From positions 1,118,528 to 1,182,527 of the forward strand of contig FJOG01000016.1 in NCBI GenBank assembly GCA_900073065.1: a stretch of DNA of 64,000 nt, read 5' to 3'. This stretch comes from Phialocephala subalpina. Its lineage: Eukaryota > Ascomycota > Leotiomycetes > Helotiales > Mollisiaceae. Positions 858 through 39,183 of this stretch are shown here, piece by piece. The notes under the pieces are model-generated. The model ran no database searches. It was given only the letters and a program-made list of their open reading frames with translations, and had not been told where the DNA came from. A program made the translations under genes and the position numbers. Position 1 is the stretch's first letter, and each line of letters starts with the position of its first letter.

Positions 858-2039
858 ATGTCTGGATTTCTTCTGGTTCTCAAGAAACTCTACTCCCAAT
901 ACAAACCCCTCCCCTACCCCACCAAGTCCTTCGCCGGACAGACCGTCATAGTCACCGGAGCCAAGTAAGTAACCCCTCTCTTTGTGTCGCCTCTCTGATT
1001 CTGCTGTATGAGAGCCTCCAAAATCGTATTCCATGCTTCTCACACACATGGTCTCTCGAGAGAAACATACTAATCCGCTGCAGCGTTGGCCTCGGTTTCG
1101 AAGCCTCCCGCCACTTCGTGCGTCTCGGCGCTGCCAAAGTAATCCTCGCCTGCCGTTCCCTCTCCAAAGGTGAAGGAGCAAAAGCCGACATTGAGCGCAC
1201 CACTGGCCGCAAAGGCGTTGTTGAGGTATGGGAAGTGGATATGGGAGATTTCGATTCAGTTCGGAGGTTCGCGAAGAGAGTTGAGGGGTTGGAGAGAGTA
1301 GACGCTGTGTGTGAGAATGCGGGGATTGCGGGGTTTGAGTATAGACCCCATCCATCTGGGTATGATGCTATGACAGCGGTTAATGTTATTGGGACTTTTT
1401 TGTTGGCGTTGAATTTGCTTCCTATTTTGAGGAGGAGTGGGCAGAGGTTTAATATGGTGCCGAGGTTGGAGATTACGAGTTCGGGGGTTCATGATGGGGT
1501 ATGTTTCTCTTTGTTTTGATGTTTAGGGGACTGGGGATGGAGGCTGATGGTGAAATTCACAGGTCAAATTCGACGAAAAGAATGAATCCTCAATCTTCTC
1601 CGCCCTCTCCCGTCCCGATCGTCCCGACTGGGCCAAAGAACGCTATCCCGTCTCCAAACTCCTTGAAGTCCTCGGTGTTCGATCCCTCGCTGAACAGATG
1701 GCGACTGGCCCACATGCAAAGCAGAAGGTTATTGTTAATGTTGTCAACCCGGGGTTCTGTAAGAGTTCTTTGGCGAGAGATGCGAAGGGAATGATGTATG
1801 TGATGTTTACGATTATGAAGACTCTCATGGCTAGGTCGACGGAGATGGGGAGTCGAACCATCTTCTCGGCCGCGGCGGCTGGAGAAGAGAGCCATGGGAA
1901 GTATATGAGCGATTGTGTGGTGGCGGAACCGAGTGAGTGGGTTAGAAGCGCGGAGGGGAAAGAGACGGGAGACAGAGTGTGGAAGGAGCTGCTGGGTATC
2001 TTGGAGGGCATCCAACCGGGCGTGACGAAGAATATCTGA
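858..2039 (+). CDS. Short-chain dehydrogenase/reductase (SDR), retinol-dehydrogenase-like
   Basis: Three exons (858-964, 1084-1498, 1563-2039) join to a 332-aa NAD(P)-dependent oxidoreductase; the first intron follows the codons for VTGA. The Rossmann glycine motif TGANVGLG spans the first junction. Further on come a VILACRSL beta-strand/arginine segment, an NAG-type motif (CENAGIAG), the serine strand LEITSSGVH and the catalytic YPVSK (Tyr-x3-Lys), followed by VVNPGFCKS. All classical SDR landmarks are therefore present, in order, at normal length. The family reduces or oxidises small carbonyl or alcohol substrates; the substrate cannot be told. The ATG at 858 sits in CAAGATGTC, a good fungal context, and no signal peptide is visible. 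It does not form an obvious cluster with its neighbours. Confidence 0.88.
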
Positions 2040-17943: not shown

Positions 17944-20432
17944 TCACCAGAGCCGGCGGAGCATGTCATCCGTGGTCTCGTCCTGTCTGCGAGAGTGGCC
18001 TTCGTTGGATCCACTGTCCTCCCTGCTCGACATCGCACCTGGTATGTTTGGCCTGATAGTTGGCCTTGGGGCTGCCTTTCTTTCCGGCATTGTACCTGGA
18101 CTCTCTACACAACACTTTTTGAAGTGCGCTTCGATCCTCTCCTTGTTCGCTGGCCATGTCCCCAAGAATTCTTTACAGCGAGCGCAAGACCAACCGTCCT
18201 TGCTATGGTTGTAGGTATCTGACCAAGACTCGGGTATGTCCTTCGTCAATACATCCAACCCATGAATATCCATCAAATGCGATTTCATCATGTCGGGTCT
18301 GTCGACACGAGTTTGAAAGGTCTGAAAATGATGACTGTTGAAGCAGGGAAACCCGCATTCGGGTGTACAGGTTCCAAGCAGACATGTGTACATTCCTGGC
18401 TTCCAGGGTACATCCATCTCAACAAACCTGAACTCTGGAACACCCATCTCAACAAACAACCGCTCGAACTCTGGTACATCAATTTCCATCGCGCTGTTCT
18501 TTGTCTCCTTCGATGTACTTTGAATAATCTGATGAGGTTCATGATCAAAGCCTCGTGGCCATTGCGTGGGGTGGATGGCTTGTGACTTCTCGCTGTGAAT
18601 TACCTTAAAGTGTCTTTCCTGATCTGATGGACGAGTGAAAGTCATATCGCACATGGGGCATTTGTATGGTCGTGGACGCTTATTCTGAAAAGATGGACCT
18701 GCGACCTCAGATAGAGACTCCAAGGTACGGCTCGACCGACTGTAGAGCGTGTTCATCGAAGAGCGATCACTCTTGAGGCTGCGATCGCTCAGGTACGAAG
18801 AGTACGAGCTCATTGATTGAATAGAATCCCGACTTTGCATATCCTGAGTATTGTCAGGAAGGCTCCACGATCTGAGATGCTTGGGGCCTGGCGCTGCATT
18901 TTGCTCATGATGAGTCTTCGATATGTTCGCCCCCAAACCGTCCAAACTGGACTTGTGAACATTGGTGTACTGGTCTTGCTCAAACGGCTGCCAGACCGGC
19001 CAATAATCCATCCTATTGCCCGAAGTAATGGGCCCAAGTGAGATGATTGATGGATCTTGAGGGAGATATGCCGCCACAGATAGCGGGAGAGACATGATGA
19101 CGAGTGTCGAATGGCTGTCAAATGAAGCTTCTACCTTCATCTCATCGGCGATTGTTGGAAAATTTCTGATCCACTCTGTAAACAGTTCAATCATGCTTTC
19201 ACCAGGCTGAAAGGTTTCCCTAAGACGAATCGAAAAGAGCAATCTAGGAGTCTCGGCGGTAGGAGGTGGATTTAGAAGGAGTCGCCCGTCTGTCGCAGGC
19301 TTGTCGTCTGATAAAGTCGAGAAAGATGCGCCACGCCCAGATTCTTGGCTATGACTACCATTGGGATTGTGTTGGTTTTCGAAGGAGGAAAATGGCGGGG
19401 TTCCGCTTTGCGTTGAGTTCTGCTTCATGAGCAGCCTTTGAGGCCCGACACTAGCAGGCAACTGAATGCCCCTCGGACTCGACTCCCCATGACTGAGCGC
19501 CAGATGAATCGGCGCAGGATGCCGTTCCCTATGCGTCCCATCCCCATACATCTCTTCCGGCATCCGACACTGCGTCCGAAAGAAGATCTTCTTGTACAAT
19601 TCCCCAACGCTAAACGAAGGCTTATTGCTCAACAATCTCAGCTCTGTTACCAGCGCACTTGTGAAAGAGTAAGGTCCGACTCCATTCGCTGTCTCGTTGA
19701 ATGCGCAAGCTGAGATGAGTTCATTGACACCGTTTCCCTCGCTCGCATTGGCAGTCCCTGATGCGCAGCAGTCGAGCAAGATGAGGACGTCGCTTGGTGA
19801 TTCTTCAAGGATGGTTTGGATGCCACCCCACTTGACCATAGGGCATTTGGCTTTCTTGTTATTTCGCCAACTGCAGTCACGTCAGCTTTCATATACTCTC
19901 AAAATGCCTCCAAGATGAGAAGTACGAACCTCGTCCAGACCAGCAATCTCGTATCCGTCAACCTCGCATGCCCAGCATAATACACGATCTTGAGATGCGT
20001 CTTACTATCCTCCGTAGGCTTCACAAAATCCATAATCTTCTCCGTCAACTTCCAATGTGAATGCTCATCCGGAATCGTCCACCTCTCCGTCTCATAACTA
20101 TATACCTCATAAAACAAATTATACAAATTCCTTATCTCCTGCGAGACCGGGAGTCGAGGGTCTTCATCCTCCCAGCTCAGGATCAGAACAGAGACTTCAG
20201 TATATCGTGAATTAGTATCATTTGGAAATACAGCGTTCGCTGCATCCTGGAGACTCTTGCCGAAGTCTGAGAAGTCGATGTGGTAGCGCCATCGATCGAT
20301 GTCGGCGAGTGTTGGTGGTGGGGTGGAGTTGGGACTGCTGGTGTAGCCTTGAGACTCGCTTTCTCCTTTGCTGTCATAGGTGGTGTTTGAGCTTGAGAGG
20401 CTGTGATCACGACTGTGGAGGTGTGCCATCAT
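17944..20432 (-). CDS. Caspase-fold (C14) domain fused to C2H2 zinc fingers
   Basis: Two exons (20432-19930, 19870-17944) join at LLVWTSWRNN and give 809 aa. The N-terminal part is a caspase/metacaspase-like p20 fold. After a predicted beta strand comes LKIVYYAGHA with the candidate catalytic His155, then DVLILLDCCASG with candidate Cys203, aligned with the D-x-C-x-S-G of metacaspases. Residues ~290-640 are Ser-rich and mostly low complexity, with one structured patch. From ~640 a C2H2 finger YKCPMCDMTFTRPSDQERH is followed by a second Cys/His region (YTCLLGTCTPECGFPC) and a third (WSCARCKEFLG). The caspase fold plus DNA/RNA- or protein-binding fingers suggests a sensor-effector protease. No STAND module is present. 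The neighbouring gene at 21039 carries the same finger region. Confidence 0.8.
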
Positions 20433-21038
20433 GTGCAACTATCTCTGCTGGTCTCAGCCTCGGACTATCGCGATGTGGGGGCCAATGGCATCGAGGTGCG
20501 ACGTGAGACAAAAACAAAATTGAGGAGAGCGAGAAAATCTTTGGGCTAGCGAATAGATTAAGTAGACCGCAGCTGCCAACAGTCGGGATGGGAAGGCGCC
20601 CGCATGGGGTCTGAAACGTCGCTTCCGACTGATCGGTGACCAAATGAGGAACCCTTGCAATGCTTCACAGCCTTGCGCTGTAAGCAAAAGTGAATGAACA
20701 TCATTGCAAAAAATATATTAACGGAAATGCCACCTGCGCTTAAAGAACGACCAATGCATAGTAATGTTTATTCGTCTACCCGTCTACGGGTCTAGTTTGC
20801 TGTGTTATTAATATGTATTAATTCGTCTGAAAATTTGCGAGCAAAACCTCCAAGAACAAGACATCAAGTAGAAAACAGAACAGTCCGCAAAGCGTAGACA
20901 TCAAGCCGTCTCTAGTTGACTACGAGAGAGCATCAGCTCGTCAGTGTAGGTATCCCCACTCCCTTCTCTTTGTTGGACGTAACATTAGCCCGACTGGTAC
21001 TCAATGCCAAGTATCTCTTTAGGGATTTCTTGGCCGTC
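20433..21038. other. Intergenic, no supported gene
   Basis: Region between the two finger-module genes; both are on the minus strand. 20740-20850 is relatively AT-rich with a local duplication (GTCTACCCGTCTACGGGTCTAG). No coding signal is seen. Confidence 0.5.
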
Positions 21039-23998: not shown

Positions 23999-24352
23999 AA
24001 CATATTTACTGTTGATAAGCATGGACGAGAGAGTCACAGCAGAGATTCTCGTGCCGAGATGGATAACGATGAACGTCATGATCTCCGGGATATCACGTAC
24101 AAATCAGATACCGCGAACCTTAACTCTCTGCTCAGCGAGAGAGGCAAATTCTGTAAGAAATGAAGAGCAATCGAGTGGTGGTCTATACTGCGACGAATTG
24201 AGGCGCGCGATGAAGACCGGTTTTCTTTCCCACTCTATGGCAATCCGCGGACGTTATAAGAGTTGCAGAGCTGTTGCGAGCTTGGTCATCGTATATATCC
24301 GACTCTAATGGAATAGCTTATTCGATATCGGAATCTCGACATAACTATTTTT
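23999..24352 (+). pseudogene. Decayed gene remnant with three in-frame stops, next to the AT-rich block
   Basis: One frame reads through a protein-like sequence (MDNDERHDLRDITY, LNSLLSERGKFCKK, RAIEWWSILRRIEARDED, FSFPLYGNPRTL, ELQSCCELGHRIYPTL). It is broken only by TGA, TAA and TAG. Each stop is one C-to-T step from a sense codon that suits the context (CGA, CAA, CAG), the pattern left by RIP. The reading is lost completely where the AT-rich block begins. The ancestral family is not recognised. The alternative is chance; the length of uninterrupted amphipathic sequence around the stops argues against it, but only moderately. Confidence 0.4.
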
Positions 24353-26230
24353 TATTTCTGTCTTTGGACTTGAGTAGTTACTACTATAGTTTAAGTTATA
24401 AGTAAGCTAAACTTGAGCCGGATTAAACAAATGAATTAAGAAGGTAAACCCACGGTAAATAAAAGTAACTTGTTTAATCTCTTTAGCTATAATTGCTACT
24501 AATTAAAATTAGAAAGAATAATACAAAGGTTTTATTTGGGGCCGATTTTAGATTTTTATTCGTAAAAATTATATTAAACGATTTATTATATTTCGTAAAT
24601 TTAAATTTTAATATATATAAATATATATTATTTTATTAAATATTTATTTAATTTTTGTTTATCATAAAATATTATATTTTAATAATAATTAATTAATGAT
24701 TTTATATAATATTAAAAAACTAGAAATATATATATATAAATTTTAAAAATTAATATTTAATATTTTTTATAAATATATTTTTTATTATATAATTTTATTA
24801 AATTTTTTCCTTATATAAAATATTATTTATATAATAATTAGTTTAATAATTTTATTATAATTAAAATTTTTAATAATATAATTAATTTAAAATTTAATTT
24901 TTTCAATTATAATAATAATTTTTTTTAAAGAATATTATATTAATTAAAAAAAATTAAAAAAGATTTTAATTTATTTTTTCTTTTTATTATATTATTTTTT
25001 GATAAATATAATAATAAAAATTTATTTTTAATATTCTTTTTATATAATATAATTTAATTATAATATTATATATTACGAGAAAAATATATATATTATATAT
25101 TTAAATTTATAATAATTCTTTCAAATTAATAAAAATAATAATATATATTAAAATTTTAATTCAAATTAATTTATTATTATTTTTTATATTATAAAAACTT
25201 ATTTTTAATTTTTTAATAAAAGTATTTCCTATATAATCGAATAAATTTTAATAAGGAAAAATTAATATAAGAAATCCTAATTTGGTTTAATTTATTTATT
25301 TATAAAAATACTAAAATTATCGTTTATATAAATCAATTAATTGAATAATTATTATTAATTCAAATTATTTAAAATATAAATATATAAATAATATTTAATT
25401 AATTTTATTATATATTTCGGAATTATATAATTCGTTTAATATTTGTATTTATAATTATAATTAGAAATATAATTATAATTTCGATATAATAATAATTATA
25501 ATAGAATACTATGGCAGGGCAAAATGGTAGGGCGATATATCACGTGGTCTAATGAGGATATATTAAGAGATTTGGTATCTTGTATTCTTAGTTCTTTAGG
25601 TAGCTTTCTACGTGGTTCGTAAATACTAGAATTAACTCCAAGAGGTTTACCCTTTTATAATACCAAATTGGAAAATAATTAAAATTTTTTATAATTTGTT
25701 TTTATTTTAAATATAAGAATATAATTCGTAAAGAATTATATTCTTGGGAATCAAATTAAGAATTAAAAGTATATTAAAAATTCATATTGAAAATAAATTA
25801 TTTTAATTTATTATTCTAAATTATATATTTTTTTTTAATAATAATAATAATAAATAAACGGAAATCTTATATTTCTCAAGGAATAAATAATTTTATATTC
25901 GAAATTTTAATTAAAATTTCAAAGATTAAATTTACTTTTTAATATTTAGAATAATTAGTTTTTATAAAAATTAAAATAAATATTTTTATTATTTTTATTT
26001 ATAAAAGTAATCTATTAATTATATATAAATTAACTAGTAATTCTTAATAATAATTATAATTTAATAAAATTATATATTAAAAAATTAAATTAAAAATATT
26101 TCTAATGAAATTAATATTAAATATATTAAATTAAATATAAGTTTATATAATATTTTTCTAGCTTTAGAATCCGCTTTAATATTAATAAAATCTATTAATA
26201 TATTTTATTTATAGTATAATATTAAGGGCC
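24353..26230. repeat. AT-rich block, probably a RIP-degraded transposon remnant
   Basis: Nearly two kilobases of sequence composed almost entirely of A and T, with poly-AT runs and no open frame. A short island of ordinary composition lies at about 25510-25640. Borders are abrupt relative to the ~50% GC flanks. In Pezizomycotina such blocks are normally repeats mutated by RIP, and they often subdivide accessory regions. The remnant is too degraded to show terminal repeats or transposase homology. Confidence 0.75.
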
Positions 26231-27748: not shown

Positions 27749-30700
27749 CTAGCTTTCAAGCTGTGTGAATGACCCATCCTCACTCTCTTCGTCAACTTCA
27801 TACAGCCTGTCTCCATTAATTGCTGCACCATTGATATGTGCCTTCTCCAGCTCTGCCATTTCCCTCAGGTGCTGGAGAGTTGCCGCATCGCTCAACTCCC
27901 TCTGCCTGGACTTGCTTAGTTTGCCGTCACCCTCCCATTTAATCGCCTCTTCCCAGGCCTCCAGCGCCTGCTTCCAATTGCCTTCGTGGCCTGCTGCCTC
28001 CGCTAATCCTCGGTACAAGTAAACCACATTGTGCGGGATAGCTCCACCGCCCCTCGGCCCGCGGCCTCCACCAATGTCCTCGCGGCTATCATGCAGCTCA
28101 GCGGCTAGAGCGTCCTGGAGCAACTTCATGGCATCTGGTCCGCCGCCGGGCCGTGACATGGCTGCTTTACTGGCGGCGAGGGCCTTGAGTATTGGCTCGA
28201 CCGGCTTGCTGAGCGAGTTCCGGAGATCGAGGATGCCGCCCACTTCGGGGGGCAGCCCTGGGAGAGCACGGCGCTTGGTGTAAGGCGTCGTGTCGTAGCC
28301 CAGGCGTGAGAGTCCGTTGAAGAATTTCTGGCGCATGGCGAGAAGCTCCACGATGTCTTCTTTGCTTGAAGGCTGCAGGAACTTGGCCAGCATCCGTGTG
28401 ATGAAGTTGAAAGCGCATGAGATGGCAATGTCTAGGACAGGGACGCGCGTTCGTTTCTTGGTCAAGAGTTTAGCTTCGAGGACATAGAACTCCATCTTAC
28501 GTTGGTCCATGCCGTCATAATAGTTGAAAAGATTGCAAATATAGAGCATTGAGACACTCTCCATGAGCAGACTCCTGATCGGCGCTTTAGAGTTAGTCAT
28601 CATCGCCATCTTGATGCGCTCGCGGATAGCCGTGAATGCAGACAATGCAAGATCGCATAGCGACAGCAGGAGGGTCTCGGCTGTGATGTCTCGCAGACCG
28701 TATGCAATAATGGCTAACCTCCACCAGAATTGTGTAACTCGGAATGTCAGAGTCGCCAAGAAGAGGACGATTTCCAGAGTAACCAGAAGCGCCCGTGCAA
28801 AATCCTCAAAGACGCCAGAGCCAGTGATACTTTCTCGAAGCTCACACAGACTATTTGACCAATTTTTTGGCGTCTGCTTTTTTCCGGTCGGGGTGATCCT
28901 CTTCAAAGCCTCAATTTCAGACTGAAATTGCCATCGTGCCTCTTCCCAGAACCACGCCACGACAGTCTGTCTTGTCTGGTCGCCTAAGATGCCCTTCTGC
29001 ATCGCAAGAGTAATGCGAATCAACTCAGCGAGGCGACAGTATTCAGCGACTTCGTCCGGGCTTCGCGACTTTCCAGTTCCATCCAAATTGAGTTTACCCC
29101 TTACTGGAAACGGCTCTATGATGAAATACGCTGCGACGAGGAGATTGATGAACTCGGCGCCAGCAACTACATGGGCCTCCTGGACCCACGCTTCATCAGC
29201 ATGAAGCTTGTCCAATGGCCATGTCTTGATCTTGTAGGCTATGAATCGCGGATATATTTGTCGGCACACGGCCCGTGATTCTGGACTGCTCAAGTGGCGT
29301 AGAACAAGAGGTACCAAAGGATGGAGGCGAAGATACTTGGCTTTCGTTTTCTCTTTCGCTTCATTTTTGATAAGGAATCCGAGTTTCTCAAGATTTTTAC
29401 AGGTATCCTCCAGGCTGTTCCAGCGAGATGTATACTCTTCATATCGCTTTTTGCTCACCTCTAGTTTCTTACCCAAAAAGCCGACATATTTTTCCTCAGG
29501 ATCTGCCTTCTTGATGACATTGTCAAGCCAGGATCTCCTGGGAGTCGAGAAGGTCAACTTGGATCGATTGTCGTTGAACTCATCGTCGCTGGCGTCAAAT
29601 TCGTCTGAGTCTGAGTCTGATTCGCTGATGTTAAAATCGTCGGGGAAATCTTCTACAGCTGAGTGATTTGAACTAGACCCGGGTTCCGTTCTCTTGGTGC
29701 TATCTGATAAATCGGACGTACCGACGGGAAAGTTGGTCGATTCCGAAAACATCAAAGACATTGTTCGCTGAGACGCCTTGTCAGGGGCGTCGGGAAAAGT
29801 ACCCCACCAATTCCCTTCAGGTTGATCAGGGGGAGTCGAAGACTTTTGATCTTGATCTTCCTCACCTCTCCAACAAGCCTCGACATACCACCAGCAGTAA
29901 GTTCGTAGCTCCGAGTATGGGGTTTCGAAGTTTGGGATCTTGAGCCAGAATGGAAGAAGAAGGTGCACCATTTGGGAACTATCCTTTTCCAGAACACTCT
30001 TGAGCTCTTCAATGCTGTTGGATCTATCGTGATCGCCGTTTTCCCACCAAGAATCGTGGATGCGGATTTTGTGTCCTCGCATGAGATGCGTAAAGTAATC
30101 CTGTGGTGCCTCAACGAGCTTCGGCGCAGCGAAATTGCGCATCAGAATCTTCAGAGCCAACGGGTTACCAGAGGCAAGCTTGATTATGTTTGTGACTGCC
30201 CCCAGAGCTGCAGGACTCAGCGCTTCGACGTTCACGGCGCCATTAGCCTTGAGGAATTCGAAACCCAGCTTGATACTATTATCGCGAGTCAAAGGGTCCA
30301 ACTCCTTGACGAGGTTAGTCAGACCTCTGTGCCAGGGCTTCGTGATCCGCGACGCAATGATGACTAAACTTTCCGTGCTTAAGAAGATGCCCTTCAGCAT
30401 TGGTGCGTATTTTAGGAGATCACGTTCTTGCGTCGACGCTGTCTCATCAAAGATGAACAGGTAAGGTTTCTTCGTGGTCTTGGCTCTCTGCTCCATCTTT
30501 CGACGCAATTCCATCACACCCTTCATATCAATAACATTCTCGGCGAACTCAATGTTAAGAGAGGTGGCCAAAACTTCCCAAACAGAATCAAGGTGACTGA
30601 AGAAGATGTGGTCTTCAATAAATCCTGTCTCACGCCACCATTTAATGGCGTCTGCGAGAAGGGCAGACTTTCCCACGCCTGCCTCGCCTTCTATTCGACG

Positions 30701-32208
30701 AATACCTCGAGATTTCAAAACCTTCTTCTTGTTGACCTCAGCGACATACTGATACAGGTCCATCTCCAGTAAGAGAAGATCCACCTCACGGCCAACCATC
30801 GCAGGCTGGCCCTTTTCGATCTTGTGAAGCCATCTGTCATACTCCTGTAAAGAGTTTGCAATTGATGTGAGTGAAGGTTGTAACGCATCTAGCACCTGGG
30901 TGCTGGCAAAAATCGACCGGGCTTCGTAGATAATTGGTACAAAGTAGTCGTGTACCTTAACTTCTGTTCCAAAATTCGTTTTCCTTCCTCTTTCCCGCAT
31001 CAGCTGCTCTCTACCAAACCTAGCAGAAAACGCAGTGTGCGACTTATGACGGAATAGCTGGTAGTAGAACGCCTGCATGAACAGGGGAGCCGCGGTCTCC
31101 AAGAGTTTATATGACATTGCCACAACAGTGTCGATGCTTTTCTTTTGAACAAACGCCCTCGCAAGGTTCAGATTAGGATCGTCTCCTTCTTTCGCAGATT
31201 CGCAGGCATTCAGTACAACAATCTTGACATTATATTCATCAAGTAAATCTCCAACTTCATCTGCGAGAGTCTCATCGACTTCCCACTTCACAGAGTCTTT
31301 GTCGATGCGGCTTTGGATGAAACAAAGACGAGGTCTATAAAGGGGGGCAATCGTGCCCTAATGTCAGCCGCGGTGTTTCTTGCGCATTTGATGTTTCTGG
31401 GCTGACAGACTCACTTGTTATCGCGTATTACTCCGTGGACATCCAAGTGAACAACGTGATAATAGCCAGCCCCTTTAGATTTGAGTTGCTCCTTCAGTTG
31501 ATTGAACGTCGGTGGCCGAAGCACGTCAAAATCCTCCACTTTGCCCAGAACCTTCATCGTTTCCAGGATGGGTCGGGTGATCAGTCGATGTGGAATGTCG
31601 ATGATGCCCGGCTTTCGCGCGGTAACGGCTAGAACGCGAGGCTGAAGAACATCTTTTAGGCCATTGTCAAGTTTCAAGTCCTCGTTGTCAAGTTTGGAGT
31701 CTCCATTTGAAGACGAACCAATGACACGCCGCACAGTGAGGCCGGATACATTGGAGGCTCTATTCGAATACGAGCTGACCTCTTCAAGCGCCTCCCAATG
31801 TACCGCCCTGAAGTATCGCGGTGCGCCCTGAAATTCGCGCACTTCAAGAAGCACATGCCGGGGATTCGAGTCAGACGATGGAATATCGTCCAGTTGAAGG
31901 GACTGGAAGAGTTCTGCCGCGTAATTTCGAAGTGTGTGAGACACCTTCTCTGCTCTTGTAACCTCGAAAGGGTCCTGGATGGCATGCCTCTCTACAAGCC
32001 ATTCGAGGTCTTCATCAAAGGTACCCTTTGAAGTCTCTAAAACAGCTTTGGGAAGCTCAACTGTTCTAACGCTTTCTCCTTGGCGAAAAACATCGATTTT
32101 GCTTCCTGAACCCTGCTTGAACTAGTGAGCAATTTAGAGCTTTGTTGGCTGGCAGTGGAAACTCACCTGACTCGGCTCTACCTTGATGACAACGAGAGTT
32201 GTTTCCAT
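27749..32208 (-). CDS. CHAT-protease STAND/NLR-like NTPase
   Basis: Three exons (32208-32167, 32121-31415, 31334-27749) join without frame loss to 1444 aa; the last junction restores HGVIRDNKPRLCFIQ. An N-terminal region precedes a caspase-like CHAT domain with the catalytic pair His243 (VVHLDVHGV) and Cys294 (VVLNACES). Next come MVGREVDLLLLEMD, Walker A EGEAGVGKSA (residues ~466-473), Walker B-like PYLFIFDE and a winged-helix-like region. Then follow an acidic insert (SESDSDSDEFDASDDE) and a long helical C-terminus with a TPR-like repeat (GNWKQALEAWEEAIKW). This is the effector-NOD-repeat plan of fungal NLR-like STAND proteins, in which CHAT is a death-inducing protease. Head-to-head with the gasdermin-like gene at 33236, it is the likely activator of that protein. 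Confidence 0.9.
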
Positions 32209-33235
32209 CACAATTCCAGCAAATCGAAACTTAGGATTCTTGCAAGGACCCAGCCCAAAATGGAGTCAGTCAAGTAGCTTAACCGTGAACCTTAGGCAAT
32301 TACAATGGTACAGTCACGGTGTTGACAATGATTTTTAAAAACATATCGGGCTTTACTCCGCGCTGCTGCCCGAGGAGCTGATAGGAGAGAACCAGGCAGA
32401 ATTCTAACCTCGCCCAACGCCAGGTTATCTGCAGCTGTTTGACCCACACAATCTCCATTTGCAAGAGGTGGACTCACCGGCTCAGCAGCCCCGAAGGTTG
32501 CTGATACTAACAACCTATTGAAGACGGGAAGACTCGCCTCTCGGCCCCCGACCGACGCAGAAGGCTGCAGCCAGCCTCGCGGTCCCTTCCCGATGGTGAC
32601 GTGGCTCTTGAATGTTTCGGAATGCATGCAGATTCTGATAGAAAACAAGCATGCGGAAGCAGTGATAGGTCAAACAACGGTAGAAACGGATGGATTGATT
32701 GGATAGAGTTATGGATACAGTGGTGGCTGAACCTCTGGCTACGGGGATCGATATATACAGAGCGTGTGCAGGAAATTTATTAATCACCATGCATAAAAAA
32801 CAATATCGAGCAATACAATGCGCCATATAGGGTTGTTTCACAAACAAGATGTCATTCGCAACGAAGTTGGATGATTCCAAGATAGCGAGGCCTAACAAAA
32901 GATGCTAACAAGGAGGTACTAACATTGTATAATTTGGGGATAGAAATTGAGTGCTTGGAGCGGATCTGAAGCGATATTCTTATCCAAACTCAGCCTTGCG
33001 ACAGTGAGAGCTAAGTACAAGCTGACAGTCAAGCTCAGCTGTCTTCACCGTATCTGCGGACTTTGCCCAAGCTCGGTCTCCGTCTCTCACCTGATTCCCT
33101 GACTTGGCGTTTGATTAAAAGGCCTGTATGCTCTAGCTTATCAGCCTACCAGAAGAAGCCTGTCCCCAACTTATTCATTATATCATCGGATCAAACTTTG
33201 AGTACATAAACTCCAGAATCAAAACATTTTGCGAC
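32209..33235. promoter_or_regulatory. Shared divergent promoter between CHAT-STAND and gasdermin-like genes
   Basis: About 1.0 kb separates the two start codons, with no open frame that looks coding. CT/CAA-rich leader sequence precedes the ATG at 33236. A bidirectional promoter would allow co-expression, as expected for a protease and its substrate. Confidence 0.45.
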
Positions 33236-34362
33236 ATGAGAAACCAGAAGAAACTGTATCATCTACTTCACACGGCCAAACCTCTTCGGATCAAGGAGGC
33301 CGATCGCGGTGACCTAAAGTGGCTGGGAGCCATTGTTGAAAACATCGACGACCCGGCGGACAACGTAGATTTTCGACCAAGCGAGTACCCGCTCATCGAA
33401 GACACAAACTGGTCTTCGATTGAGCTTAGGGACTTCGAAGTCTCTGTCATGAAAAAGGCATCTATGTCTCTACAGCTCAAATTGGCAAACACCCTCGACA
33501 TTAACATTGAGAGCAATGGAGAGTTTTCCAAAACGGCTGCCAAAAAGAAAGTCGTGGCATACACCCTAATGGGCTACGACAAATTTCTCAATAAACTACT
33601 TGGTATAAACGGATACCGTACTGAATTGTTGCCTCATCTTTCGGCTTGGTCCACAGCGCGATGGTTTGTTACAGGTTATCTGGTTGCGATTCCTGTCGAA
33701 AGCGAAAACGAGAAAGAGGGGGAGAAAGAGGGGGAAGGGGAGAACGGAAATAGCGAAACGAAAGGTACCGTTGAAAATAACAACTCCCTTTTAGTTGTAT
33801 TTGCTAAAACCATAACTGAGCAGACAACGAACCTTCTCACGATACTGATGAAACTGCACATCCTGGAGGAACAACAACTACCGATAAAACGACCAAGGTT
33901 GAAGTCGGCGTTGATCCAGGCGCTGCTCTCGTGCCTGCAGGGGGGGCATTACCTCAAGTGCTGGTTAAAGGGACGATAGGTCACGATGCGCATGCTGTAG
34001 TCAAGGCAGAGGCGGTCGAGTCGCATATATTTGCCGTAGCGTTCAAGGGCATTAAGAAAGAGAAACGGGGCAAAGGAGTAATACTGGGTGACGGCCCGCA
34101 AAAGGAAGGTGACTTTGGTGATGGTCCAGGCGGCAACCAACAGCAGCAAGCAGCTGAGGAAGTAGAGAGCATTCTGCTCGACCCAACGCCTTTGAACGAA
34201 GTGCTAAACGCCATTCTAATAGAAGGCGGTGATGGTGGAGGGGAGATCGACCAGTTCTATGCGACAGAGGCCGTGGAGGACCTAGAGTTTGCCAAAGAGG
34301 AAGCAGCCAAGTTTGAAGAGCTATTCGGAGGAGTGGAGTTCGTGTACAAAGAAAGTCTCTAA
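33236..34362 (+). CDS. Gasdermin-like candidate (fungal RCD-1/HET-Q1 type), pore-forming cell-death effector
   Basis: Two exons (33236-33764, 33824-34362; 59-nt intron GTACCG...GAGCAG) give 355 aa. The first ~160 residues alternate polar and hydrophobic positions (LYHLLHTAKPLRI, SAWSTARWFVTGYLVAIPV), as in a beta-sheet membrane-insertion domain. A charged, Glu/Gly-rich loop follows (ESENEKEGEKEGEGEN). More strands come next (GALPQVLVKGTIG, VESHIFAVAFKGIKKEKRG), then an acidic helical tail (EDLEFAKEEAAKFEELFGG). Length and order resemble fungal gasdermins, though longer than the ~260-280 aa usual. Those proteins are activated by proteolytic removal of a short C-terminal part and are commonly encoded beside a subtilisin or CHAT protease STAND gene. 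The assignment rests on overall pattern and on that neighbour, not on a searched match. Confidence 0.6.
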
Positions 34363-35229: not shown

Positions 35230-38200
35230 ATGGACTCATCGGTTCAGAGCGGCCCAAATGGCCAGGAAATACGAACAAAAAACAGCAATGAAAAACGGTA
35301 TCAGGATTTTGAGCCGAAGCCGTCTCGTGCAGAAAAAGAGTGGGTCCGAATGAAAAATCTTGGGGACAAGAACACCAAAGTGAATGAGGTAATGGACCTC
35401 ATCGGACTGGAGGATGTGAAGCAACAGTTTCTTTCCATCCTAGCCAAGGAGAAGATACACGACAAGCAAAAAATTAAGGTTAAAAATGACCGATTCCATG
35501 CCGTGCTACTTGGAAATCCAGGAACTGGTACGAAGACAATGTTACCCTGAGCTAAAGGTTTCATGGAATTACTAATTCGGTGAAAGGGAAAACAACCATA
35601 GCAAAGCTATATGGCGAGTTCTTAGAGGAGATAAAAGTTTTGAATATAGACCGGCCAACGGTCTCTGGCAATTACTCCAACAATTACGAACCCATCCCAG
35701 ACCCTGACTTCAAGGCATTTCGCTTATTTTCGGGTGCAAAGCTCGCCATTCAAGGTGCTCAGCAAGCACAGGATGAAATAAAAGAGATTGCTGAGACAGG
35801 GGGTATTATCTTCATCGACGAAACATATCAGTTGTTGTCCCCGCACAACTCCAGCGTTGGTGCTGCGATATTGGATATAGTTCTTACAACGATGGAGGAA
35901 AACATCGGGAAGCTGGCTGTCCTTTTCGCTGGATACAATCGAGACATGCAGACATTCTTCGAACACAATCAAGGGCTGCGAAGCAGGATCCCATACACCT
36001 TCCATTTCCAAGACTTCAACAACGCCCAGCTTCTCACTATACTAGCGGCAAAAATTGAGGAGAAATACGGCCTGGACAACTCAGGTGAGCCAAAGATGAA
36101 GGTCGAAGAGGAGATTGATGGCCGCTTGATGAAGGTCAAAGCGGGGAAAGATAGCCGCTTAATGAGAGTTGTGATTCGCCGCCTCGCTGCCGGTCGCGAT
36201 TTGAGAGGATTTGGAAACGCCAGGGCAGTTGAGAATTTGCTGGCGCAGATATCCGAGCGACAGGCAAGAAGGCTTGCAGAAGAAGAGAGATCTAAAAAAG
36301 AGAAGGCGAAAGAGGACCTGGAAGAGTGGAACAAAAGACATGACGAGAAAGTAGACAGGGAGAAACTGAAGGAGCAGCTCAAAACAGAAAAGGAGGAGAT
36401 TAAGCAGGGCAGGATACGTCTCCACGAGGAGTTGAGGCAGCTCAGGGATCGTAAGACTGAGTTGACTAAACAAGTGATTGACTACAAAAAAGGTAATCAG
36501 GGCAGTGCCGATGATGAGGAAGCTTCCAAGGATGAAAATTTAACAACAGATGCAGCGGCTGGTGTTAAGAATGATAGTAACATAGATGAAGACGGTGAAG
36601 ATTGGCAGCTGAGAGGCATTGAGCTTGATGAAACGGAAAACGACACGGAGACAGAGAGCGAAAAACCAAACGACAACGTCACCCTCGATGATGATGCAAT
36701 TTTCTGTTTCACTCGCGACGATCTCATTGGGCCGCCCCCATCCACGGCTGAGAAAAGTCTGGCTTATTCTGAGCTTCAGAAATTGACTGGGCTTAAATCA
36801 GTGAAACTGGCCGTGGATACGATGATTGGAATGTTGGAGACTAACTACGAGCGGGAACTGGAAGAATTATACCCCCTTACACTATCTCTGAACCAAGTGT
36901 TCTTTGGAGCGCCCGGGACTGGAAAGACGACTGTCGCCAAGCTATACGGACAGATATTGTCAGAACTCGCCCTATTGAGTGACGGAGAAGGTATGTTTGT
37001 ACAAATTTTCTATGCGAGATCTAGACATACTCTGCACCGCCGTAGAGCTCGCTAATGGCTGACAGTGGTGGTCAAAAATCCTTCCGACTTCATCGGCAAC
37101 GCTGTTGGTGTGTCCGAAAGCAATACGAGAAACATTCTCGCTGCCACTGTTGGCAAGGTCTTGGTCATCGACGAAGCTTACATGTTGCACTCTGGTATTC
37201 ATAGCCAGGGATCGTCGTACGGGACCTCAGTCATCGACACCATTGTAGCTGAGGTACAAGGAATTCCAGGTGATGATCGATGCATTATCCTTGTAGGCTA
37301 TGAAGACCGCCTTAAGGAGATGTTCCAGAACGCCAATCCTGGCCTCGCCCGTCGTTTCCGTATCGACAGGGCATTTCGGTTTGAAAACTTCAACACAGAG
37401 GAGCTAATGAAGATATTGAAGAAGAAAATGGACGATGAAGACATCAAAGCTTCGCCACAGGCACTGAAAGTGGCCCAAGATGTGCTTGAGAGGGCTCAGA
37501 TGCGCGCCAACTTTAGCAATGCCGGCGATGTAGTCACGCTACTCGACACCGCAAAGATGAACTTTCAGGCACGAATCCAGAATATCGTTCCGAGACCCGT
37601 TGCAGGCGAGTTCCAAAGGGAAGACTTTGATCTTGAGTGGAATCGCAGAGCTGATGCTGCTGAGAATTGCAGCAAAGCTCTTGAAGGGAAGGTCAGCCAG
37701 AGTTTGGTAGTGAAATTACAGGAGTGGATTCACTCGGCCAATGATGCAAGAGAGTTGGAAGAACACCTCTCGGATTCTGTGCCATCCAGAATCATGATCA
37801 AGGGACCACCAGGTCAGTGCGTGTGAGCTATGTCTACAATACAAATACTATTCGCGGCGATAATAACGACTAACCATATTTGTTCGCGGGTTTAGGAACC
37901 GGAAAGAAAACAACTGCACGACAAATCGCCAAGGTCTTCTACGACATTGGATATCTTGCAACTGATGAATTAGTTACCAAATCTGTGTCGGATCTACTTG
38001 GGCAGTACGTTGGGCACACGGCACCGAAAACAAAAGCACTACTCGAAAGCTGCCTAGGCAAAACCTTATTTATTCACGATGCAGAGCGTCTTGCAGAGCA
38101 TTCTTCATATGCTGCTGAAACCGTGGCCGAGTTCGCATCACTACTAGATACGCCGAAGTACTTTAACAAGATGGTTTTGGTCTTCGCTGGAACGCCTCAG

Positions 38201-39183
38201 GACATGGAAAATCTGATGTCTACAAGGCCAGCATTGTCACAGCTTTTCAGAGATAACATGGTTTCCGAGCCTCTCACCCCTGACGAGTGCATGGCCCTCC
38301 TTTTCAAATTACTGGAGGACAAGAGCATTTCTGCTCCATTCTTGAAGGAACCAGCGAGTAAAGATTACATGGAGACAAAGGTACTAATGGCCAGATTGAC
38401 AAAATCGCCACTGTGGAAGAACGCTACACATGTTGGAGATCTGGCTAAGCAAATGGCTACCCCAGTTCTCGCTACATGGCGGGCCAACAAGCGTAAACAA
38501 CACGAAGCCAAGACCAATGGTACAAAGGACGAGAACGGCCGTATGTTGTCGGCTGAGCAGGCAATAGACTGTCTCGACAAGATGCGCATCAATCACATTG
38601 CCAGACTCAAGGAAAACAAACGCCACAAAGGTACTAATGGCCAGATTGACAAAATCGCCACTGTGGAAGAACGCTACACATGTTGGAGATCTGGCTAAGC
38701 AAATGGCTACCCCAGTTCTCGCTACATGGCGGGCCAACAAGCGTAAACAACACGAAGCCAAGACCAATGGTACAAAGGACGAGAACGGCCGTATGTTGTC
38801 GGCTGAGCAGGCAATAGACTGTCTCGACAAGATGCGCATCAATCACATTGCCAGACTCAAGGAAAACAAACGCCCCACTCTCAGAGTAACTCGGCCTTTA
38901 GCCCGCTTGACCCTTTATCATACCCCAAGCCTGAGCGCGAAAAGGGCGTCTCGGAAGAAGAGTTCCAGCGCGTCCAGGAAGAATACAGAAGCAGCATTGA
39001 GGACGCCAAGAAAAAGTCAAAAGCGGATCAAGCTTATGAACAGAAAAAGAAGAAGCTGCTGATGGAAATGGAGCGCTGCCCCGCTGGCTACGAATGGTAT
39101 AGGAAAGACAATATGTGGCATTGCCGGGGCGGTTATCATGATATGTCTGATGAAGATATTGTGGCGAAATTGATACGGAGTTG
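35230..39183 (+). CDS. Triple AAA+ ATPase (CbxX/CfqX-like) with disrupted 3' end
   Basis: Exons 35230-35527, 35587-36990, 37066-37812 and 37896 onward. Three AAA modules follow one another. Module 1 has GNPGTGKTTIA (restored across intron 1) with IIFIDE; module 2 has GAPGTGKTTVA with VLVIDEAY. Module 3 has GPPGTGKKTTA with LFIHDAE, where the Walker B acid pair is HD, so it may not hydrolyse ATP. A Lys/Glu coiled coil (~residues 330-420) links modules 1 and 2. Reading on from 37896 closes at a TAA at 38696-38698 inside a 250-bp tandem duplication (1083 aa). Beyond it, one frame (38870-39183) is clearly coding and ends with CPAGYEWYRKDNMWHCRGGYH. Whether splicing rejoins it or the gene is damaged cannot be decided. 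Such multi-AAA proteins are frequent in fungi and of unknown function. Confidence 0.85.
38375..38874 (+). repeat. Perfect 250-bp tandem duplication within the AAA gene
   Basis: Bases 38375-38624 and 38625-38874 are, by eye, identical throughout, and flanks differ at once (GGAG before, CCACTC after). The unit encodes the end of AAA module 3 in its first copy (MARLTKSPLWKNATHVGDLA, then MLSAEQAIDCLDKMRI). Because 250 is not a multiple of three, the second copy is read in another frame and meets TAA after ~70 bases. The lack of any divergence means it is very recent or an assembly artefact. Confidence 0.9.

Follow-up and report, generated by a model that had tools for sequence, protein, structure and literature searches.

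A divergent gasdermin-like gene facing a CHAT-STAND protease-receptor gene in Phialocephala subalpina: a proposed two-gene regulated-cell-death module

Fungal gasdermin genes are commonly found beside genes for proteases. According to PMC12881547, PMC10197012 and PMC10989679, about 80% of them cluster with protease genes, the criterion applied being a protease gene within 10 kb, and the CHAT type makes up 17-19%, with dozens of its members being NLRs or NLR-like. In Podospora, a gasdermin is reported to be activated by its TPR-CHAT protease (Clave et al. 2022, cited through PMC12881547). HET-Q1, with 278 aa, loses 40 residues after F238 (PMC12881547, PMC10989679). Here we describe a divergent gene pair in the window, that is, the whole 64,000-nt stretch of DNA analysed, which is part of contig C38 of a genome of 68.1 Mb in 119 contigs.

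Gene structure of the divergent pair

The CHAT-STAND gene was modelled from the sequence on the minus strand (32208-27749) as three exons encoding 1441 aa with no internal stops. The sequence-only reading that drew attention to the locus had put both genes where we find them, intact and divergently oriented, and its gap of about 1 kb corresponds to 1,027 bp from ATG to ATG. Its protein of 1444 aa became three residues shorter by the splice choice, while the CHAT domain and the Walker A motif stood as described; the dyad that it numbered His243/Cys294 consists of the same residues, which are His240 (HLDVHG) and Cys291 (NACE) in the current numbering and are putatively catalytic. In the long exon-3 frame, the Pfam CHAT family PF12770 was matched over its cut-off (E 3.9e-6, 26.9 bits against 24), and AAA_30 was matched under its own (E 6e-4). 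Since the NACHT and nSTAND3 scores of the protein also fell below the Pfam cut-offs (14.4 against 26.7 bits and 12.1 against 27.2 bits, respectively), we named it STAND-like and not a NACHT member.

The partner gene encodes the 355 aa previously claimed, in two exons without internal stops that are joined by a 59-bp GT-AG intron (33765-33823). A frameshift in place of the intron was rejected because this intron joins the two frames and both of them match the family profile described below. After the strand with the VTG motif, the protein carries an acidic loop of 55 aa (17 D/E, 5 K/R), which spans 23-24 aa in five relatives from the same genome and is thus some 32 residues longer in the window. 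Acidic tails end all six members measured (C96 left out), that of the window being the longest with 99 aa and the other five having 56-93 aa.

Table 1. Coordinates of the pair and of a decayed pair elsewhere in the genome (window positions unless another sequence is named)
Feature	Position	Strand	Remarks
CHAT-STAND exon 1	32167..32208	-	14 aa, ATG at 32208; gene model
CHAT-STAND exon 2	31415..32112	-	N-terminal region and first CHAT half with His240; GT-AG introns on both sides
CHAT-STAND exon 3	27749..31334	-	second CHAT half with Cys291, NTPase, C-terminal region; gene model, Pfam
Codon of presumed catalytic His240 (HLDVHG)	31435..31437	-	read from sequence
Codon of presumed catalytic Cys291 (NACE)	31202..31204	-	read from sequence
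Pfam CHAT PF12770 match	31040..31237	-	26.9 bits, cut-off 24
Walker A GEAGVGKS, residues 463-470, STAND-like NTPase	30665..30688	-	gene model
Lone weak TPR_2-like stretch near C-terminus of CHAT-STAND protein	27935..28021	-	E 0.037, 14.6 bits, cut-off 27
Divergent intergenic region, ATG to ATG	32209..33235		1,027 bp; both gene models
Gasdermin-like gene exon 1	33236..33764	+	holds RCD-1-aligning segment; its frame alone matches leave-window-out profile, E 1.2e-5
Gasdermin-like gene exon 2	33824..34362	+	last conserved strand IFAVAF and acidic tail; its frame alone E 7.3e-6
55-aa acidic loop, residues 153-207	33692..33915	+	span includes 59-bp intron 33765-33823
99-aa acidic C-terminal tail, candidate inhibitory part removed by cleavage	34063..34359	+	23 D/E, 7 K/R; role proposed from HET-Q1
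C96 decayed pair, gasdermin-like and CHAT	L021 35-740; G000 C96:133014-133742		one stop in each match

Several other features surround the pair. Minus-strand frames at 17944-20438, separated from the CHAT gene by about 7 kb, contain KIVYYAGHA and LILLDCCASG, which we take to have a caspase-like look; no Pfam caspase family was matched there, and a C2H2 zinc finger below the cut-off lies beside them. Directly downstream of the gasdermin-like gene is a multi-AAA gene (35230-38698, plus strand), probably spliced, with AAA and AAA_lid_6 over their cut-offs. An AT-rich block beside the pair (24001-26000, GC 0.18) looks like a RIP-degraded repeat; this block and the spliced genes suggest a filamentous fungus.

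Relationship of the 355-aa protein to gasdermins

Taken alone, the 355-aa protein matched no Pfam family over the cut-off (best Omp85_2, E 0.11) and no NCBIfam, PADLOC or PDB sequence over the cut-off, and three paralogues searched singly against the PDB sequences gave unrelated matches only (E 0.14 or worse). Homologues were compared within this one genome and with the RCD-1 sequences of the PDB. Exon 1 had a weak second match in its own genome, on C51 (E 0.07). The C51 protein, used as a query, matched C60 (E 2.1e-6), C32 (0.019), C96 (0.069) and the window (0.37); C12, which was first spotted beside its CHAT gene, was also matched by the C60 query (E 0.037) and the C32 query (0.055), and C64 was found by the C60 search (E 0.008). 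Another candidate, C25 (E 0.3), was rejected: its matched frame resembles a membrane protein of an unrelated kind, and inspection by eye of the frames of at least 130 aa showed no protease.

Profiles built from these sequences gave a clearer result. The five-member profile (window, C51, C60, C32 and C12, the last as a partial 220-aa reading) placed RCD-1 ahead of all other PDB sequences, with a best E of 1.3e-4 and the next match at 0.2. With C64 added as the sixth member, four distinct RCD-1 sequences led (E 6.7e-5 to 2.5e-3; next E 2.1). When the window sequence was taken out, RCD-1 still came first (next match 0.84), and the best E weakened to 1.1e-3, indicating that the window sequence adds to the strength of the match. 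The gasdermin relationship put forward in the sequence-only reading was supported by three alignments, all of which ranked RCD-1 first. The match is moderate and takes in part of the domain, some 80 residues; it covers a helix-strand region in which WFVTGYLVA of the window aligns with VYMVTGIMVA of RCD-1-2.

To see whether the window protein belongs to this RCD-1-matching family, the profile of the five other members was run on the spliced product and on all 3097 stop-to-stop segments with a length of 40 aa or more in the window and in 20 loci fetched from the genome, which overlap in some cases. The spliced window protein was recovered with E 4.6e-12 (43.4 bits), and the best of 1000 shuffles of it reached 3.9 bits. 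Because C51 had been chosen for its likeness to the window, it was also removed, and the window protein was still matched with E 2.3e-8. Smaller profiles were weaker (C60 and C32, E 1.7; C12, C60 and C32, 0.031; C51 and C12, 0.0085; C51, C12, C60 and C32, 6.6e-6), so that the strong link to the family needs the wider set. An AlphaFold2 single-sequence model of exon 1 alone had a mean pLDDT of 33 and was not used. Altogether, these comparisons support the assignment of the 355-aa protein as a putative divergent fungal gasdermin that has a CHAT protease-receptor of its own.

Recurrent pairing of gasdermin-like and CHAT sequences in the genome

With the CHAT-STAND protein as the genome query, its own locus, C12 and C51 were recovered with E values no higher than 0.001, and all three face a gasdermin-like gene. 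The CHAT family search revealed at least 11 loci. A gasdermin-like gene lies on the head-to-head side at six of these 11 (window, C51, C12, C60, C32 and C96); at C61, C35, C87, C31 and C53, the search was confined to 4.5-5 kb on what is presumably the 5′ side, and no gasdermin-like frame was found there. At least seven gasdermin-like loci were found in total, six of which face CHAT sequence, C96 being decayed and C32 depending on a link that we infer, and protease sequence is present within 10 kb at 7/7. The conserved pairing anticipated for this gene is therefore seen within this one genome. Since homologues of the partner lie opposite CHAT sequence at five further loci, the pairing in the window is not a matter of chance. 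Under a simple placement model, the probability of at least six of the seven lying beside one of 11 CHAT loci was 7e-17, and that of at least five of seven, with C32 uncounted, was 1e-13, figures to be read with C12 first noticed through its neighbouring CHAT gene and the seven loci as a lower bound.

The CHAT domains were compared at five loci, including the window and leaving out C96, and like His/Cys motifs were present in C51, C12, C60 and C32. C60 has a 995-aa frame with CHAT at its C-terminal end and a sub-threshold TPR match (E 0.39). At C32, the piece facing the gasdermin-like gene matches TPR_10 (E 6e-10), and some 9.3 kb separate that gene from the CHAT domain (E 5.4e-33). Between the TPR_10 piece and the CHAT domain is an insert (L016 2078-7998), a 5.75-kb stretch between 170-nt direct repeats that are 96% alike, with a frame inside that we presume to be copia-like; the gasdermin-like neighbour is still open. 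We infer that the TPR and CHAT pieces are one TPR-CHAT gene split by this transposon-like insert. The C96 pair has decayed on both sides, the gasdermin-like match being interrupted by a TAG and the CHAT match by a TGA. C64 presents a different neighbour: its gasdermin-like gene (L034 33-893, plus strand) is tail-to-tail with a subtilase frame (1286-1924, minus strand; Peptidase_S8, E 1.3e-6), on the far side of which there is a DUF7580 match. At C12, a perfect 19-bp tandem repeat of 6.4 copies (L018 8399-8520) is located either between the two paired genes or in the first part of the CHAT frame.

The rank correlation between gasdermin and CHAT similarity, calculated over five pairs after dropping window residues 153-200 and leaving out C64 and C96, gave no support for co-evolution, 21 of 120 permutations being as good.

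Proposed mechanism and comparison with known systems

We consider it very probable that the two genes form a regulated-cell-death module, consisting of a tail-inhibited gasdermin and a CHAT protease receptor that would cut the tail and free the pore former. The order of events is proposed by analogy with HET-Q1 and the Podospora TPR-CHAT/gasdermin cluster, and tail inhibition, cleavage, pore formation and sensing are all carried over from published relatives. The 355-aa gasdermin would be held inactive by its acidic C-terminal tail, while the 1441-aa protein would act as an NLR-like receptor whose N-terminal effector is the caspase-like CHAT protease. Its C-terminal part may sense the trigger, after which the NTPase would drive assembly and the CHAT domain would cleave the gasdermin behind its last conserved strand, ahead of the acidic tail. 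The freed N-terminal part could then form pores in the plasma membrane and kill the cell.

Other readings were weighed against this module. That the genes are chance neighbours, or share only a promoter, and that the partner is an unrelated acidic protein would fit the partner sequence alone, for which no database match passed any cut-off; the pairing of homologous partners at other loci and the profile match to RCD-1 make this highly improbable. The RCD-1 match itself, with RCD-1 as the best PDB relative of the partner family, suggests another possibility, as RCD-1 is activated without cleavage (PMC12881547): the partner might be a gasdermin triggered by a different allele, with the CHAT-STAND protein doing something else. 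We regard this as unlikely, considering that six of the seven gasdermin-like loci face CHAT sequence, that His/Cys motifs are kept in 5/5 examined (C96 left out) and that the window protein bears a long acidic tail.

The sequence-only reading had also taken the unusual length of the partner as a hint of a distinct subtype. In the form weighed here, the long acidic loop, besides the tail, would restrain the pore-forming hairpin and have to be cut or shifted. The 55-aa loop (17 D/E, 5 K/R) following the VTG strand, as against 23-24 aa in the five relatives, speaks for this. However, RCD-1-2 is also extended at this place, with an insertion of some 20-40 residues relative to the profile in a weakly aligned region, and inserts of low complexity are common. 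The loop is therefore an elaboration of a variable place and no proof of a subtype, and the extra length (acidic loop and 99-aa tail) alone does not make one; we give the subtype a slim chance. A two-lock gasdermin, whose loop would block membrane insertion of the hairpin so that the receptor must cut twice before a pore forms, appears to be similarly doubtful.

The module of a tail-inhibited gasdermin and its CHAT receptor would add a well-anchored and very divergent case to the fungal pyroptosis-like systems. Within one genome, a single executioner family has CHAT-STAND, C-terminal-CHAT and subtilase neighbours, and such a genome is suited to asking which sensor drives which gasdermin and whether the partners are interchangeable.

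The pair can be compared with four known systems. The TPR-CHAT pair of Podospora anserina likewise has a gasdermin gene adjoining a CHAT protease gene, and short-tail cleavage has been proposed for it. Its protease is a TPR-bearing CHAT protein, whereas in the window protein CHAT is N-terminal to a STAND-like NTPase, and activation is reported for the Podospora pair while it is deduced for ours. In HET-Q1/HET-Q2 of the same species, which act in allorecognition, a protease likewise activates a fungal gasdermin; HET-Q2, in contrast, is an S8 subtilase and the idiomorph of HET-Q1 at the locus, and among our seven loci only C64 adjoins a subtilase. RCD-1-1 and RCD-1-2 of Neurospora crassa (PDB 8jyx, 8jyy, 8jyz), to which the partner family is closest among the PDB sequences, have 257 and 244 aa and are activated by the meeting of two alleles, not by cleavage (PMC12881547). 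The fungal CHAT-bearing NLRs clustered with gasdermin genes resemble the window pair in domain order and gene pairing, although the window protein is divergent and matches the NACHT and TPR models weakly. As gasdermin-CHAT pairs have already been published, the window pair is a further, strongly diverged example of them.
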